A stretch of DNA of 64,000 nucleotides, taken from the NCBI GenBank assembly GCA_024223715.1, contig JAAEOA010000427.1:1-64000 (forward strand), given 5' to 3'. Every line of letters starts with the position of its first letter. Position 1 is the first letter of the stretch. Source of the stretch: a bacterium. Lineage in GTDB: Bacteria > Krumholzibacteriota > Krumholzibacteriia > LZORAL124-64-63. The position numbers and the translations under genes were made by a program. The notes under the pieces were generated by a model. That model did no database searches and was not told the origin of the DNA. It saw nothing but the letters and a program-made list of their open reading frames with translations. Of this stretch, positions 46,149-53,570 are shown piece after piece.

Positions 46149-46349
46149 GGGAGTTTTTGCCTTTCCGAAAGAGTGTTCTGGGTTCCGGTCAAAGATAGAA
46201 CACTTTAAGTCCTTTGACTTACAAAAACTTGGGACTTCCTCTGAAAACCCCAATTTCATACCTGCCAGAAGCAAGATGTCCTGGCGGAATAAATATCCAA
46301 TCGGAACTTCAATGGGCTGAGAGCCCCATTCTCAAAGCGATGAAGAACA

Positions 46350-46499
46350 CAACAACGGCTTGTTGAATTTAACAACACAAGCAACTAGTTGCCATATAAG
46401 TGGTTAGATTCACTTTTCCGTATTCCCTCAAAATTAGCCGCTGAAATATTCATCATTATCATTACTTCAACTAAAGAAACAACACCCGTAACCTGTTGT
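46350..46499. promoter_or_regulatory. cluster of CAAC/GTTG palindromes (candidate activator sites)
   Basis: CAACAA-N4-TTGTTG (46350-46365), an overlapping GTTG-N7-CAAC (46362-46376), the perfect 12-bp palindrome GCAACTAGTTGC (46381-46392) and ACAACA-N9-TGTTGT (46479-46499). They lie about 60 to 210 bp before the predicted start of transcription, the usual distance for sigma54 activator binding. A similar CAACTGTTG occurs at 53418-53426, upstream of the ferredoxin-NrfD operon. Confidence 0.45.
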
Positions 46500-46529
46500 C
46501 CCCCTGCTTGTTAAGCGACACCAACTTCC

Positions 46530-46546
46530 TGGCACCCTCTATGCAA
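46530..46546 (+). promoter_or_regulatory. sigma54 (-24/-12) promoter
   Basis: TGGCACCCTCTATGCAA matches the consensus TGGCAC-N5-TTGCW at all but one specific base, with the invariant GG and GC exactly ten bases apart. It sits about 63 bp before the GcvH-like start codon, leaving a leader of about 50 bases. Two sigma54 response regulators lie in the window; one converges on this gene. Confidence 0.75.
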
Positions 46547-46608: not shown

Positions 46609-47274
46609 ATGACTGCCATCCTCGTAATCCTCATGTTTGTTGTTCTGTTAAGCCTCGACTCATTCAAACTTTACCTCAAACGACGCAAGGGTGCCGAACC
46701 AGCCGAAAAACCGCTGGCCACATTCACCCCCATTCAATTCCCCAAGGGTTTGTTCCTGGGCAAAAACCACAGTTATGCCCGGCTCACGGAATTGGGTGAA
46801 CTGAAAGTTGGAATCGATGAGCTGCTGACCCAGGCCCTTGGCGATGTGGATGAAGTGGATATCATGCCTGCCGGAACACGCCTGGCCAAAGGTGATACCA
46901 TGGCCATTGTCACCCGCTTGGGTCACAAATTTCAGGTTACTTCTCCAGTTTCCGGCACTGTTGTTGCCCCCAACGAGAACGCTGAAATTAATCCCTACAC
47001 CATCAATACCGATCCGTATGGCCGCGGCTGGCTGGCAACCATCTGGCCTGTTGAACACAACGAAGCCCTTCGGGACCTAAAAGTTGGCGACCGGGCCTCC
47101 AGTTGGTTAAAAAACGAGACAACCCGGTTCACTGACTTTTTAACCGCCCGAACCAGTTCTGAAATGGGAGGAGCCCTGGCTGCCGATGGTGCCCATCCTG
47201 TAGTTGGCGCAGCTTGTATTCTGGATGAAGAAGGCTGGAATCAGTTCGAAAAGGAATTTGCCCGGATCAAATAA
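46609..47274 (+). CDS. membrane-anchored GcvH-like protein lacking the lipoyl lysine
   Basis: A 221-aa protein with an N-terminal membrane helix (TAILVILMFVVLLSLDSF), then a lipoyl-type barrel similar to glycine-cleavage H protein (FPKGLFLGKNHSYARL; QVTSPVSGTVVAPNENAEINPYTINTDPYGRGWLATI). In GcvH the lipoylated Lys lies eight residues before PVSG; here that position is Gly and the nearest Lys is at -6, so it is probably not lipoylated. Similar proteins occur beside NrfD-type redox modules. AGGA lies eight bases before ATG. It has its own sigma54 promoter and terminator and converges on the cytochrome gene. Confidence 0.75.
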   Translation: MTAILVILMFVVLLSLDSFKLYLKRRKGAEPAEKPLATFTPIQFPKGLFLGKNHSYARLTELGELKVGIDELLTQALGDVDEVDIMPAGTRLAKGDTMAIVTRLGHKFQVTSPVSGTVVAPNENAEINPYTINTDPYGRGWLATIWPVEHNEALRDLKVGDRASSWLKNETTRFTDFLTARTSSEMGGALAADGAHPVVGAACILDEEGWNQFEKEFARIK

Positions 47275-47338: not shown

Positions 47339-47740
47339 TTACCGCACTTCGCCTTCACCAAGTTCCGGCCCTTCGGGCAAAGCTTTTCGCTCGTGACAAT
47401 CGATACAGGTCGTGGAAATTTCCTCCACCATATGACACCCCACACATAACTGGTGGTAAGCCATCTTCAAATCCGGGCTCTCCCAATCTGCAGGATCAAA
47501 TTCCTCCATATGACAATCGCTGCATAAGGATATTTCATCCGGTTCCTGGTCGTGGTGGCAATCCGTACAGTCTTCGGCAACATCCACATGATCAGAATGG
47601 GTGAACTCCACCGCCTCAAACCAGTAACTAATGGATTCAATAGTCACCTCTTCAGGACTCTCAATCACTTCTGCTTCCTGGCCCACACCCACGGCAGCAA
47701 CCCAGGTTACAAAAGCAATCGTCAGGACCAAAGTTTTCAT
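47339..47740 (-). CDS. periplasmic tetraheme cytochrome c
   Basis: A 133-aa exported cytochrome. Signal peptide to about residue 20, then four CxxCH heme sites: CTDCH 58-62, CSDCH 73-77, CVGCH 99-103 and CIDCH 112-116, with extra histidines (EFTHSDHVD, AYHQL) suitable as distal ligands, as in class III (c3/c7-like) cytochromes. It probably takes electrons from the NrfD/ferredoxin complex encoded upstream in the same operon and hands them to periplasmic partners. It overlaps the archaemetzincin stop by four bases. No terminator of its own is seen. Confidence 0.9.
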   Translation of the reverse strand: MKTLVLTIAFVTWVAAVGVGQEAEVIESPEEVTIESISYWFEAVEFTHSDHVDVAEDCTDCHHDQEPDEISLCSDCHMEEFDPADWESPDLKMAYHQLCVGCHMVEEISTTCIDCHERKALPEGPELGEGEVR

Positions 47741-48312
47741 TCGTTGTCTCCTTTCAGGAAGAACGACAGGATTCCGTCTTTAGGTACATTCATGACTTCT
47801 GCACAGGACCCGCAATAGGACGGATCCTTCAAATCAACATGTTCAGGAAGAAGGGAAGCGTTCATCACACACCAGGAAAGCTGGCAATGAACCAAACCGA
47901 AGGTATGGCCCAGCTCGTGCATCACCTCTTTGAGGATTCGCAATCTGAGCTTGTGCAAATCCATTGGTTCCCCTGCAAACATGGGGCACAAACGATGGGT
48001 TGAGGCAATACCCAACTGCCCGTTTAATTGGGCGCTTCCCAATACGTGGGCAAAAACCGGTAGAAATAAATCAACATCCGTGACAGCAATCCGTTTTGTT
48101 TCCGGGTCCACAGCGGGCCGCTGCATCGTTTGAAGAAGGACGTCCACGGAATATTGCTGACGATCCAGAACAAAAGCCTCTTTAGTGGGCAGAACCTGAT
48201 CCATGACCCTAACCGGATGGGCCAAACTAACAGCCAGGTCCTGACGCAGCTGATTCAACAGCCCGGGCGCCAGGCCTCCCGTTCCCATGAGTTCCAAACT
48301 CCAGGCTGGCAT
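47737..48312 (-). CDS. archaemetzincin-family zinc metalloprotease
   Basis: A 191-aa peptidase (M54). The extended zinc motif is complete: HELGHTFGLVHCQLSWCVMN followed by CGSC, matching HExxHxxGxxHCx4CxM...CxxC with its second structural zinc. The family occurs in archaea, some bacteria and animals, and its physiological substrate is unknown. There is no signal peptide, so it should act in the cytoplasm. It starts one base after the sigma54 regulator stop and overlaps the cytochrome gene by four bases, placing it within the redox operon. A role in maturation or turnover of a redox protein is only inference. Confidence 0.92.
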   Translation of the reverse strand: MPAWSLELMGTGGLAPGLLNQLRQDLAVSLAHPVRVMDQVLPTKEAFVLDRQQYSVDVLLQTMQRPAVDPETKRIAVTDVDLFLPVFAHVLGSAQLNGQLGIASTHRLCPMFAGEPMDLHKLRLRILKEVMHELGHTFGLVHCQLSWCVMNASLLPEHVDLKDPSYCGSCAEVMNVPKDGILSFFLKGDNE

Positions 48313-48313
48313 T

Positions 48314-49657
48314 TCACTTCCGTTCGATGCCGAACTTGCGCATCTTGTTGTATAAGGTCACTCTGTCGATTTCCAAAGTCTTGGCTGTATGAGTAACATT
48401 AAAAGCATGAAGCTTGAGTAGCCGGCGAATGTGTTTCTCTTCAATGGCCCGGAGGGATTGGTCATCGTCCCCTCCTGTTTTGTCCTTGTCGACAATGGGC
48501 AGGTGCTCCTCCTGAATTTCGACACCTCGGCAGACAACCAGCGCCCGCTCAATGGCATTGGCCAGCTCCCGCACATTTCCAGGCCAGGAATACCTGACCA
48601 GCAACTCTCTGACTTCTTTTGAAAACCCTTTAGCCTGACGTCCCATGGCTCCGGCATAACGATCCAGGAAATGTTCGGCAATTGGCAAAATGTCCTCTGG
48701 TCGATCCCGCAAAGGAGGAATAGTCAGGGAAAAAACATTGATCCGGAAAAACAGATCATCACGGAAATCGCCAGAGTCGACAGCTTTCTGAAGGTTTCGA
48801 TTGGTGGCACAAATCAAACGAAAATCCACAGAAATTTCCTGATTGCCACCCAAACGGGTTATTTTCCGGTCTTCAAGAGCGCGTAATAACTCAACCTGAA
48901 CCTTGGGTGAAACTTCACCCACCTCGTCTAGAAAAAGTGTGCCACCGTCGGCCAATTCAATTTTCCCTTTTCGCCGGGAAGTTGCCCCCGTGAAAGCACC
49001 TTTTTCATGACCAAATAATTCGGACTCCAGCAAACTGTCCGAAAGAGCACCGCAATTAACAGCCACCATGGTGCCAAAATTGCGTTGACTGCGATTATGA
49101 ATCTGACGGGCAATCAGTTCCTTTCCCGTTCCCGATTCTCCAAAAATCATGACTGAAGTATCAGTGGGCGCAACCATCTCTGCCAACTCCATCACCTTGC
49201 CCATTTCCGGACTCTGGCCGGTAACAATTGTTGGCCCTGATTTGGTCAACTGGTTTTTCAGCGTCACATTTTCTTTCGTTAAGGCAACTTTTTCGCAGGC
49301 CTGGGCCACAATTCTTGAAAGGGCTTCCGGATCAAACGGTTTGACGAGATAATCGTAAGCTCCTTCCTTCAGAGCATGAACAGCGGTATCCACAGAGGCG
49401 TACGCCGTTACCAGAACAACCGCAATATCGGCATCCTTCCGACGCACCCGGCCCAGTAATTCCAGACCATCCATTCCCGGCATTTTTATGTCGGAAACAA
49501 TAACATCGTACGATTGACGACCGAGCATGTTGAGAGCCTCCTGCCCACTCGATGCTGACTCGACATCGTAGCCATCCTCAGCAAACCAATGCGACAGTGA
49601 CTCCCGCACATGGAGTTCATCATCAACAATCAAGAGCCTGGGTATGTGCTGACTCAT
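48314..49657 (-). CDS. sigma54-dependent response regulator (NtrC family), partner of the heme kinase
   Basis: A 447-aa activator. The receiver has DDELHVRES and acceptor Asp in VIVSDIKMPG with the closing KPFDPE. The AAA+ domain has GESGTGKELIARQ, the sigma54-contacting KGAFTGATSR and GGTLFLDEVGE. The C-terminal helix-turn-helix is HAFNVTHTAKTLEIDRVTLYNKM. It starts 11 bp after the kinase stop, so the pair is clear. Its probable target is the sigma54 promoter at 46530, just beyond the end of its own operon, with the CAAC/GTTG palindromes as candidate sites. Confidence 0.95.
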   Translation of the reverse strand: MSQHIPRLLIVDDELHVRESLSHWFAEDGYDVESASSGQEALNMLGRQSYDVIVSDIKMPGMDGLELLGRVRRKDADIAVVLVTAYASVDTAVHALKEGAYDYLVKPFDPEALSRIVAQACEKVALTKENVTLKNQLTKSGPTIVTGQSPEMGKVMELAEMVAPTDTSVMIFGESGTGKELIARQIHNRSQRNFGTMVAVNCGALSDSLLESELFGHEKGAFTGATSRRKGKIELADGGTLFLDEVGEVSPKVQVELLRALEDRKITRLGGNQEISVDFRLICATNRNLQKAVDSGDFRDDLFFRINVFSLTIPPLRDRPEDILPIAEHFLDRYAGAMGRQAKGFSKEVRELLVRYSWPGNVRELANAIERALVVCRGVEIQEEHLPIVDKDKTGGDDDQSLRAIEEKHIRRLLKLHAFNVTHTAKTLEIDRVTLYNKMRKFGIERK

Positions 49658-49668
49658 GACACTTCCTC

Positions 49669-51249
49669 CTATGCTTGCAAATCAGTTTTCAGAGGCAGGT
49701 AAATACTGAACTGGCAACCTTTTCCCGGCTGGGTCGCCAACTCGATTCTTCCGCCATGGCTTTCCACAATTCCGTAAACCACCGAAAGCCCCAACCCCAC
49801 GGACGAGCCTTCCCCTTTGGTGGAATAGAAAGGCTCAAAAGCGTGGCGAGCTACCTCCGCTGCCATGCCCGGACCATTGTCCTGAACAATTATCTGCACA
49901 TCGTTTTCAAGGTGATGAGTGTGAATTTTTAACTGTCCGCCATTGGGCATGGCCTGAGCTGCATTAATGAATAAAGCCATCAGCAATTGCTGCAATTTGT
50001 TCTGGTCAGCCAAAGTGACAGGGAGATTTGGCTCCAGGTTTCTTACAATTTCAATGGCATTCAATTCGAACTGATGGTTGACCAGAAAAAGAGATTTTTC
50101 GACAATTTCATTGATGTCCGTCCGGTCCAGACTGCCACTTCCCCGCCGGGCAAATGTAAGAAGCTGAGCGACAATTTCACCACACCGGGTGGCCTCCGAT
50201 GAAATTGATTCCAGATACTCCAGATTTTTTTCGCACTCCTCGTTCATTTTCGATTTTTTGATTCGGCGCACCAGAATTTTGGCATAAGTGACCACACTGG
50301 CCAGAGGGTTGTTGATCTCATGAGCCACCACGGCGGCCAACTTGCCCAACGATGCCATTTTCTCCACTTGCACCAATTGGTCCTGAGCACGCACCAGCTC
50401 GTCTGTTTTCAACTCCACTCGTTGCTCCAGAGTTTTACCCCAAAGCAAAAGCTCTTCTCTTGCTTGTTTCAGATCCAGAGCCAACAAATTGAAAGACCGG
50501 TCCAGACAGCCGATCTCATCGCTGGATTCATCATCGATTCGCACAGAGAGGTCTCCCGCGGCCAGCATTTGGGTCTGGTCTATCAGCCTTTGAACTCTTT
50601 GGTAAACAATGGTTCTGCCAGCAAAATAAACGACAATGACCCCCAGAATGACTCCAGCCAAACCAGCCAAAGCCATGCCCTTGGCATTGTCCCGCCGGGC
50701 CTGGTGAAAAGGCTCCAGATCAAGTTTCAAACCCAGCACTCCAAGCAATGCGTCGGGTTTTTCATCGGAGTGACAGTCTGTGGTGGAACACGATGGCCGG
50801 TTTAATAGAACATTATTGACCATTAAAGATTGCCGCCCATCCTTCTGCTCCATATATGAGTGCTTATTGGCGGGGAAATTTACCGGCACAGGATCCTGAT
50901 TGTGACAGAGCATGCACTGGGTCTGATGCAGATCCTGCTGAAGCCCAATTTCTTCGTGATTGGTGGAATAAGCGATAGCTCCACCCCGGGTGTAAAGCCT
51001 AATACGTTCCACATCCCGATGCGCAGCAAAATCATCAATGGTGTTTTGAATCCTGTCCTGATCATTTACCAGCATGGATTCCTGTAAAACCGATAGCACG
51101 GTCTCGGTCAACTCCAAACCATTCTGACGTAAAATGCGAATGGTCGCCCTTTCCTGAACTTTCACGTTTATGAAAGTTGTCACCAGGAACACCCCAGCTA
51201 ACATTATTGAGGTGATGATAGTCATCTTTCCCGCAACACTGAGTTTCAT
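49669..51249 (-). CDS. sensor histidine kinase with diheme c-type periplasmic domain
   Basis: A 526-aa membrane kinase. First membrane helix about 8-28; periplasmic domain to about residue 188 with two c-type heme attachment motifs, CMLCH (112-116) and CSTTDCH (154-160, the CX4CH variant); second membrane helix about 191-211; HAMP; HisKA with LAAVVAHEINNPLASVVTYAK; HATPase with NAAQAMPNGGQL, DNGPGM and GLGLSVVYGIVESHGG. A covalently bound heme pair would let it sense redox potential, oxygen, NO or a c-type cytochrome. Its gene lies between nrfD and the sigma54 regulator, so the operon encodes its own sensor. Confidence 0.92.
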   Translation of the reverse strand: MKLSVAGKMTIITSIMLAGVFLVTTFINVKVQERATIRILRQNGLELTETVLSVLQESMLVNDQDRIQNTIDDFAAHRDVERIRLYTRGGAIAYSTNHEEIGLQQDLHQTQCMLCHNQDPVPVNFPANKHSYMEQKDGRQSLMVNNVLLNRPSCSTTDCHSDEKPDALLGVLGLKLDLEPFHQARRDNAKGMALAGLAGVILGVIVVYFAGRTIVYQRVQRLIDQTQMLAAGDLSVRIDDESSDEIGCLDRSFNLLALDLKQAREELLLWGKTLEQRVELKTDELVRAQDQLVQVEKMASLGKLAAVVAHEINNPLASVVTYAKILVRRIKKSKMNEECEKNLEYLESISSEATRCGEIVAQLLTFARRGSGSLDRTDINEIVEKSLFLVNHQFELNAIEIVRNLEPNLPVTLADQNKLQQLLMALFINAAQAMPNGGQLKIHTHHLENDVQIIVQDNGPGMAAEVARHAFEPFYSTKGEGSSVGLGLSVVYGIVESHGGRIELATQPGKGCQFSIYLPLKTDLQA

Positions 51250-51270: not shown

Positions 51271-52434
51271 TCAGGACAATTCCACGAAAGGATCTTTGGG
51301 TTTGGCATCGGTCAAAGGACCTTCCGGAAATACCGGCAGATACCGTACGGCCAAACTGAAAGCGTAAATACCCAGGGCCACCATGCCCATCGAGACAACA
51401 AACTCCATCCAGTGGGGTTTGTAATCGGCTCCGGTTCCCAGCTGAAACGCAGTCACGGCAACATTCATTCGATTGAAAATTACGCCCAGAACCACTAACA
51501 ACTGAGCGCCACCGAGCCAGAGCATATTTTCACGCACCTTCCGCGTGAAAAGCAGCATCATGGGCACAATGCCTCCCAGGGTAATTTCAGCCAGGAAGAA
51601 CCACGATGCGGTATCAAATTTAAAAACGTATTGGAAGGCGTCGCGAATAATCAAATCTTCCACCCGGATAACCAGGTAGACCAAAAGCATAACGGCTGAA
51701 GCCCGGCCCACTCCCCGCAACAACCGGGGTTTGAAGCGATGTCCCAATCCGCGAAGAGTAAAAAATGCTTCTACATTCGTCATGGAAAGCCCCAGCGTTA
51801 TTGCCGAAACAAAAAACAAAATGGGAAGAATGGGTGAGTACCAAAGAGGGTGTAACTTCTGCGGCGCAATGACATAAAGCGTGCCCAGAGAACTTTGATG
51901 AAGAGTGGAAAGCAATACCCCGGCAATGACCAATCCTGGCGTCAAATATTTGTGCATAAATTTCGACTGACGAATGAAACCGAATCGCTCAAAAACCAGA
52001 GGCAGAAACTCCAGGAATAGGACTGTTGTGTAAAGCATCACACACCAGCCCACCTCAAACATTACCGAATGCGGATTCCAAAATACCAGCGGGTGCCAGA
52101 TATTCCACGGCCGCCCCAAATCCACCAGTAAGGCCATCACCACAATGATGTAACCCAGGAAAGCAGTCAGGACTGCAGGCCGGGCCATGGACTGGTAATT
52201 CTTAAGATGAAAAATATAGACCACCGCTGTAACAGTAAAACCACCTGCACCAAGGGCCACTCCACACAGCAAATCAAATCCAATCCACAGCCCCCAGGGC
52301 ATGGAGTCACTCAGATTTGAAATGGCCCCCAGGCCCATTGTGTAACGCCGGAAAAGAATAAAAACCAATAGGGCCACCAGCCCTAAAAAGAACGATGACC
52401 AAAAATGCGGGCGAAGGACTTTTACTCTACTCAT
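51271..52434 (-). CDS. NrfD/PsrC-family quinol oxidoreductase membrane subunit
   Basis: A 387-aa integral membrane protein with about ten hydrophobic helices. NrfD-type features include SMPWGLWIGFDLLCGVALGAGGFTVTAVVY in the second helix pair, LVDLGRPWNIWHPLVFWNPHSVMFEVGWCVMLYT and GGIVPMMLLF. These subunits exchange electrons between membrane quinones and an iron-sulfur partner. ATG 52434 overlaps the ferredoxin stop by eight bases; the ORF-track start 41 codons earlier lies inside the ferredoxin gene. No catalytic molybdopterin subunit is present, so the complex may be a quinol:cytochrome c oxidoreductase. Confidence 0.92.
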   Translation of the reverse strand: MSRVKVLRPHFWSSFFLGLVALLVFILFRRYTMGLGAISNLSDSMPWGLWIGFDLLCGVALGAGGFTVTAVVYIFHLKNYQSMARPAVLTAFLGYIIVVMALLVDLGRPWNIWHPLVFWNPHSVMFEVGWCVMLYTTVLFLEFLPLVFERFGFIRQSKFMHKYLTPGLVIAGVLLSTLHQSSLGTLYVIAPQKLHPLWYSPILPILFFVSAITLGLSMTNVEAFFTLRGLGHRFKPRLLRGVGRASAVMLLVYLVIRVEDLIIRDAFQYVFKFDTASWFFLAEITLGGIVPMMLLFTRKVRENMLWLGGAQLLVVLGVIFNRMNVAVTAFQLGTGADYKPHWMEFVVSMGMVALGIYAFSLAVRYLPVFPEGPLTDAKPKDPFVELS

Positions 52435-53182
52435 GAGACCGACCTCTTTCTTTTTCCTCAGCCGCAGCCACTGCTTCTTTCCTTGATCCCAACCAATGCA
52501 TTCCACCCAAAAAAGCACCCCAGACCGGAATGATGGCTGGCAACTTTTCCAACACATTCCATGTCAAATGAGGCAAGTCCTGGTGAGGCACATTGTCTGG
52601 CAAGCCGGATTCTTTAATTGGATGAGTCAAAAGCATCAAAACACAGGTACCACCAGCTTCTTCTTCACCGTAAATGGTATCCTGATATTTGTCGGGGTTG
52701 GCAGCTAACCTTCGTTTGGCTTCATTCATCATGATTTCACGCTCGCCAAAATTGGTGGCTCCGGTAGGACAAATGCTGGCACAGGCGGTGGGTAAGTCTT
52801 CGGTAACCCGATGCACACACATATCGCACTTGCGAATTCGCGGGTTGCGTTCAAACCATTCGTAAGTTGGGATTTCAAAGGGACAGGCCATCATGCAATA
52901 ACGACACCCAATGCATTTTGAAGCATCCCAGGTTACAGGCCCGAAAGAAGATTTTTCCAATGCAGCCACCGGGCAAACCGAAGCGCAGGTTGGATCCTCA
53001 CAACTCATGCACAAGTGCCGGGTGTACTGATTATTCCCCAGGTCTTCCACCCAGGTAAACGATTCATGATCCAGTTTTTCAGGTTTATGAAGAAGCTGAT
53101 CATGCTCCGACTGGCACCCCTGCTCACAGGCTCCACACCCTATGCAAAGGCTTTGATCGAATAGAATCGCGTATTTTGACAT
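52427..53182 (-). CDS. four-cluster ferredoxin-type iron-sulfur subunit
   Basis: A 251-aa protein with four [4Fe-4S] cysteine sets: CIGCGACEQGC, CMSCEDPTCASVC, CIGCRYCMMAC and CDMCVHRV...CASIC, the pattern of NrfC/HybA/DmsB subunits. A hydrophobic stretch near the C-terminus (LPAIIPVWGAFLGGMHWL) may anchor it in the membrane. There is no twin-arginine signal, so it probably faces the cytoplasm, unlike HybA. ATG 53182 has GGAG ten bases upstream; the ORF-track GTG three codons earlier sits on top of that site. First gene of the six-gene redox operon. Confidence 0.93.
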   Translation of the reverse strand: MSKYAILFDQSLCIGCGACEQGCQSEHDQLLHKPEKLDHESFTWVEDLGNNQYTRHLCMSCEDPTCASVCPVAALEKSSFGPVTWDASKCIGCRYCMMACPFEIPTYEWFERNPRIRKCDMCVHRVTEDLPTACASICPTGATNFGEREIMMNEAKRRLAANPDKYQDTIYGEEEAGGTCVLMLLTHPIKESGLPDNVPHQDLPHLTWNVLEKLPAIIPVWGAFLGGMHWLGSRKEAVAAAEEKERGRSHE

Positions 53183-53570
53183 GGCTATCACTCTCCGTTG
53201 TCTTCAAAACGTAAATCGAATGACCACCTGATAATTTTTACGCTTTTAAAACCTCAAGTAAAGTTTATTTTTTAACAACCCACACTAACCCACTGGGATT
53301 TAATGACTTATGATTTACAGAAGTTATATGGTCTAATATATTCTAAATTAAATAACTGAAAGGCGAATATAGGGTTGGGAGTTTTCCAGTGTAAAAACCA
53401 TAAACACACAAACCCGCCAACTGTTGAATTCTTAAACACTTAGAAATTTTACTATTTAAAAATATTTGATGACTATGTAATTATTTTCAGCAGTCAGAGG
53501 GTCCGGGAATGCTCACCTCTTCAAAAACCACATAACACCAGACTTCGGGGTTGCTCAAAAGAAACGCTGA
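53183..53570. other. 388-bp AT-rich region upstream of the redox operon
   Basis: No gene is seen. The stretch 53200-53500 is markedly AT-rich. It holds a CAACTGTTG palindrome (53418-53426) similar to those before the sigma54 promoter at 46530. No sigma54 GG-N10-GC site on the minus strand was found; a weak TTGAGG-N17-TTATCA pair near 53230-53258 might serve sigma70. No murA terminator is obvious. Confidence 0.55.

Follow-up and report, generated by a model that had tools for sequence, protein, structure and literature searches.

A sensor histidine kinase encoded in the 64,000-nucleotide stretch of bacterial DNA analysed here (the window) carries two c-type heme motifs in its periplasmic domain. 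Together with its NtrC-type response regulator it probably forms a two-component redox sensor, with NO or CO as possible inputs, that would control an NrfD/GcvH-like gene module through a Met-on/Met-off heme switch. We also put forward, tentatively and with a little less than even confidence, a broader reading in which the two-heme Cache sensor, the regulator and an archaemetzincin work as one unit over this module, amounting to an undescribed, cross-phylum form of redox control. A literature search found no description of this sensor kinase family, nor of its link to M54 archaemetzincins.

Two heme motifs in a conserved sensor domain

The 49669..51249 open reading frame lies on the minus strand, where it encodes 526 aa uninterrupted by a stop codon; the plus strand is not open. 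Its product is a real transmembrane sensor histidine kinase. Hydropathy places membrane helices at about residues 3-31 (TM1) and 190-214 (TM2), with the sensor between them, and the HAMP, HisKA and HATPase_c domains that follow each score above the Pfam cut-off. The phospho-accepting residue is His310, within AHEINNP. Flanked by the two helices, the motifs CMLCH (residues 112-116; 50902..50916, minus strand) and CSTTDCH (residues 154-160; 50770..50790, minus strand) both fall in the periplasmic loop, while the remaining cysteines (248, 339, 356 and 512) are all cytoplasmic. Translation, hydropathy and Pfam therefore confirm the initial annotation, which had read the gene as a histidine kinase with these two motifs in its periplasmic domain. 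No family found by Pfam or NCBIfam search explained the sensor region.

When 58 relatives were searched with the N-terminal 223 residues, the sensor domain turned up in 22 genomes. GTDB genomes were then scanned with an alignment of seven members (A2), which confirmed 179 encoded relatives, and 80 loci were kept; A2 is tighter than alignment A1, in which more distant relatives share about 17-25% sensor identity with the window. The kept loci are labelled Krumholzibacteriia, Latescibacterota, KSB1, Ignavibacteria, Bacteroidota, Gemmatimonadota, Planctomycetota, Zixibacteria, Acidobacteria, Myxococcota, Desulfarculales, Syntrophaceae, Betaproteobacteria and Elusimicrobiales, among others.

Conservation was counted over 108 distinct homologous sensor domains, with relatives from more than ten phyla. 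At the first motif, C112 and C115 are Cys in every domain and H116 is His in 107; at the second, which has the form CX4CH, C154, C159 and H160 are kept in all 108. Being near-invariant, the two motifs are not chance occurrences. Met59 (51073..51075, minus strand) is Met in 107 domains and falls in a gap in the other, and L169 and G170 are invariant. His162, which creates a CHxH at the second heme site, is present in 97 of the 108 relatives; the window kinase has Asp there, so its second heme may differ. The six-member clade to which the window kinase belongs has a long branch on the sensor tree.

Natural variants of each motif occur. One relative (L054:4408-6084) lacks the first CXXCH, reading CCGCA instead, and retains CX4CH; in another (L053:9092-10672) CRRCH replaces CX4CH. 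A second sensor clade (L068:3650, L103:937, L119, L123, L125:2520, L131, L135 and L138:7926) mostly carries motif pairs such as CYACH...CWxADCH or CYACH...CYQAACH and adjoins Fe-S/NrfD and often c3 genes, without M54.

Relationship to known heme sensors

When the sensor-family profile was compared with solved sequences, only two matched at E<0.001: GSU0582 (PDB 3b47, 2e-5) and GSU0935 (PDB 3b42, 4e-5). Both match over two segments: the N-terminal helix, and an NExxCxxCH heme loop that aligns with CX4CH. Each half is individually weak (independent E 0.1-3), and the significance comes from the two combined and from the fold. An AF2 model of the sensor, built with no cofactor, has a mean pLDDT of 84, with the CX4CH loop (153-163) as its least confident part. 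In the model, the heme motifs occupy the loop that follows the second strand and the loop that precedes the last. By Foldseek, the model resembles the Cache-type sensors WalK, DctB, CitA and GSU0935, the match to 3b42 having an E-value of 6.5e-4 and a TM-score of 0.49 by target length. These profile and fold matches indicate a Cache-type domain homologous to the Geobacter heme-c sensors GSU0935 and GSU0582, supporting the Geobacter-type kinship originally suggested, here in a complete kinase.

The family profile alignment also pairs Met59 with the first Met of the GSU0935 YMM sequence. Position 110 of the 3b42 chain is His144, an offset of 34, which makes chain Met26 the redox-exchangeable heme ligand Met60 (ligand assignment from PMC8396549). 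In one GSU0935 monomer the heme is ligated by His144 and Met60; the Met is bound on reduction, released on oxidation and displaced by CO and NO (PMC8396549). Reported potentials are -156 mV for GSU0582 and -251 mV for GSU0935 (PMC8396549).

Because the single Geobacter heme site aligns with CX4CH, this motif would hold the common heme and CX2CH an additional one. The Geobacter domains and the window sensor appear to have in common a Cache/PAS-like periplasmic fold, a heme site that follows an NE motif in the same loop, and an exchangeable Met on the N-terminal helix. They differ in that GSU0582 and GSU0935 have one CXXCH heme and chemoreceptor output, whereas the window protein has CX4CH at that site, a predicted extra CX2CH heme and kinase output. 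The PF21563 profile (Mcp40H-20_sensor) left the window kinase unmatched at E<=1 and matched 13 of 16 sensor-family members weakly, the best at 7.5e-5.

Other heme-bearing signal proteins show partial likenesses. GSU0591, GSU0599, Adeh_2011 and Adeh_3383 of Geobacter and Anaeromyxobacter have two c-heme motifs per protein with the signature CX2-4CH (PMC3831638, PMC8396549), a likeness by description; our literature search found no structure, family definition or gene-context analysis for these four. The NO-sensing sCache_heme family (DUF3365/Tll0287, PF11845; PMC12889525) resembles the window kinase in fusing a c-heme Cache domain to signalling modules, and the modelled window sensor shares its characteristic c-heme motif in a loop insertion of the Cache fold. 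That family has a single heme, as against two motifs here, and the PF11845 profile matched only 1 of 16 sensor-family members, at E 0.24. DcrA of Desulfovibrio vulgaris, in the account cited in PMC8396549, is a periplasmic c-heme sensor for redox or oxygen; likened by description, it is a one-heme chemoreceptor, in contrast to the two-motif kinase.

Cytochrome c maturation

The initial annotation regarded CX4CH as a variant needing a compatible maturation system and proposed a search of the genome for c-heme maturation genes. The window's genome encodes a single CcsBA fusion of 1199 aa (System II), which contains the motif WGWDPKE, and CcmE is absent. A c-heme maturase is thus encoded. The motif itself proves not to be a rare variant in this family, recurring in all 108 domains and in genomes with System I or System II. 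Among 39 sensor-bearing genomes, 18 have CcmE and 19 have ResB, one of these having both, and three have neither; the two systems are about equally common among relatives. Since CX4CH is invariant both where CcmE is present and where only ResB/CcsB is, we infer that the motif can probably be served by either system. A special lyase for CX4CH was considered and rejected on these counts of CcmE and ResB in the sensor-bearing genomes. The literature search on CX4CH with System II returned no usable report.

A conserved gene module around the kinase

The kinase gene is part of an operon with the order Fe-S (HmcB-like), NrfD (HmcC-like), kinase, NtrC-type regulator, archaemetzincin M54 and tetraheme c3. 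The first gene (52427..53191, minus strand) encodes an HmcB/DmsB-like four-cluster [4Fe-4S] protein with a Fer4_11 match, which has no Tat signal and is thus probably cytoplasmic. The second (51271..52434, minus strand) starts with an ATG at 52434 that overlaps the Fe-S gene and encodes an NrfD/HmcC-like membrane quinone oxidoreductase subunit (NrfD 9.6e-23). HmcB and HmcC of the Hmc complex are the best NCBIfam matches of these two proteins, but scores of 222 bits (cut-off 420) and 332 bits (cut-off 550) lie far under what membership of that sulfate-respiration complex would call for, and an HmcA-type 16-heme protein is absent among the operon genes. RRxF-type Tat signals occur in 25 of 68 Fe-S homologues; with this variation, the side of the membrane on which the Fe-S arm lies may differ between lineages.

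Directly downstream of the kinase in the operon, the NtrC-type regulator (48314..49657, minus strand) has a receiver, an AAA+ sigma54-interaction domain with GAFTGA and a Fis-type HTH. Its likely target, and a member of the module, is a GcvH-like gene on the plus strand (46609..47274), whose product has an N-terminal membrane helix and lacks the lipoyl-lysine. That lysine is present in just 3 of 96 GcvH-like copies with a scoreable motif. Lysine-less GcvH-like genes accompany the NrfD module elsewhere, often in two or three copies (L041-L138); our literature search for NrfD and GcvH together found no paper.

A predicted sigma54-like -24/-12 site, TGGCACCCTCTATGCA (46530..46545, plus strand), lies 63 bases upstream of the GcvH-like ATG at 46609. 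The prediction is supported by conservation of the motif in two relatives and by enrichment: sites scoring at least 14.5 precede 11 of 132 GcvH-like ORFs, compared with 0.25% of shuffles. Upstream of the operon's first (Fe-S) gene we found no convincing sigma54 site. Four CAAC-N-GTTG inverted repeats, possible regulator binding sites, lie at 46340-46500, upstream of the sigma54-like site; they cluster in the window, but relatives retain them only inconsistently.

In relatives, the kinase, regulator and M54 genes recur beside Fe-S, NrfD and GcvH-like genes. Gene content thus places the kinase in a widespread conserved module composed of an HmcB-like Fe-S protein, NrfD, a lysine-less GcvH-like protein, the kinase, an NtrC-type regulator and M54.

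An archaemetzincin linked to the sensor

The most surprising part of this module is the archaemetzincin, for which the genetic link is strong and the biochemical role conjectural. The M54 gene (47737..48312, minus strand; M54 3.8e-19) encodes a protein with no signal peptide and the zinc-site motif HELGHTFGLVHCX4CVM...CGSC. The pattern HEXXHXXGXXHCX4CXM...CXXC is intact, but with 16 rather than 17 residues ahead of CXXC, and the full zinc motif is present in 62 of 74 M54 homologues.

Within the window's phylum, M54 occurs in only 18 of 80 genomes. Of its 20 M54 genes, 17 share a strand with the sensor and lie within 6.5 kb of it; another two sit beside a kinase that a contig edge truncates, which puts 19 of 20 next to such a kinase. 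By genome, 17 have sensor and M54, one has M54 only, three have the sensor only and 59 have neither (Fisher p = 2e-13, uncorrected for relatedness). M54 presence is also clustered on the sensor tree, requiring 15 changes where shuffles give 29.7. In sensor-bearing genomes of other phyla, where only adjacency is informative because the genomes were picked for having the sensor, 26 of 35 M54 genes are adjacent to it.

The association is not absolute. About a quarter of the phylum's sensors have no neighbouring M54, so signalling does not require the protease. We inspected five of the nine non-adjacent M54 genes and found no such kinase near any of them, with a weak regulator match at one; these extra genes in sensor-bearing genomes (L142-L146, in G081, G107, G097, G094 and G105) suggest that M54 has other contexts too. 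Very little is known of archaemetzincin biology (PMC3427221), and the titles and abstracts of the archaemetzincin papers found yielded no link to a two-component system.

A proposed redox switch and its alternatives

We propose that the kinase monitors periplasmic redox state, with NO or CO as possible inputs, by means of a Cache-type domain that would hold two covalent c-hemes. The switching heme would be that of CX4CH, with His160 as proximal ligand and, in the reduced form, Met59 bound from the N-terminal helix just past TM1. Oxidation, or displacement by NO or CO, would release Met59 and shift the helix, TM1 and HAMP, altering autophosphorylation of His310. The CX2CH heme (His116) is probably a relay, passing electrons between the switching heme and carriers that are periplasmic or linked to quinones. 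The NtrC-type regulator would receive the phosphate and drive sigma54 promoters, with the promoter of the GcvH-like gene as the most plausible, so that regulator output would tune the Fe-S/NrfD quinone-oxidoreductase module. The archaemetzincin may contribute cytoplasmic regulated proteolysis together with the regulator pair.

The kinase could instead be primarily a sensor of NO (or CO) gas, with NO displacing Met59 and the second heme tuning the potential of the first or keeping it reduced. GSU0582 and GSU0935 bind NO and CO through ligand exchange (PMC8396549), and a single-heme Cache domain on a signalling module has the properties of an NO sensor (PMC12889525). Yet the kinase's neighbours form a quinone/Fe-S redox module and are not evidently NO-detoxification genes, and an invariant distal Met is closer to the GSU0935 redox switch than to the open site of the P. 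azotoformans NO sensor. We consider a primary role in gas sensing rather unlikely.

A second alternative develops the suggestion in the initial annotation that the kinase reads the adjacent tetraheme cytochrome, with the sensor taking electrons specifically from this co-transcribed protein. The gene for this secreted class III cytochrome (47339..47740, minus strand; Cytochrom_CIII 1.6e-12; four CXXCH and four further His) is the last in the kinase operon, overlaps the M54 gene and persists in the five closest relatives whose loci are intact. The suggestion is only partly supported: beyond the window's lineage most clusters with the same sensor have no c3 gene, and the conserved partners are the Fe-S/NrfD/GcvH-like genes, the NtrC-type regulator and the archaemetzincin. 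The c3 gene occurs mostly among close relatives of the window and in the separate sensor clade without M54. On this distribution, the cytochrome is a lineage-specific addition and only a local partner of the kinase, and we judge a specific dependence on it to be distinctly improbable.

That the cysteines of CX4CH and CXXCH bind another metal or form disulfides with no heme attached is very hard to credit: the literature searched holds no biochemical report on the sensor family and no cytochrome family scores above the Pfam cut-off in the sensor, but at each site the two Cys are conserved together with the His that a heme would require as its proximal ligand, homologous domains have covalent heme at the aligned site, and the genome encodes a heme maturase. 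The two-heme redox switch remains our preferred reading.

Implications for redox sensing and archaemetzincins

To our knowledge, there are few examples of heme-c sensor domains, and most are single-heme. The family described here adds a second predicted heme, keeps the putatively switchable Met throughout and spans many phyla, a spread that suggests a two-heme sensor may be a common bacterial means of reading periplasmic redox state. Because CX4CH is also present in genomes with System II only, the substrate range of CcsBA can be tested directly. If the kinase, regulator and protease do act as a joint unit, bacterial archaemetzincins would gain a physiological context, as cytosolic metalloproteases associated with a redox-sensing two-component system. 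Their near-exclusive link to the sensor kinase in one phylum makes this a testable context for these proteases.
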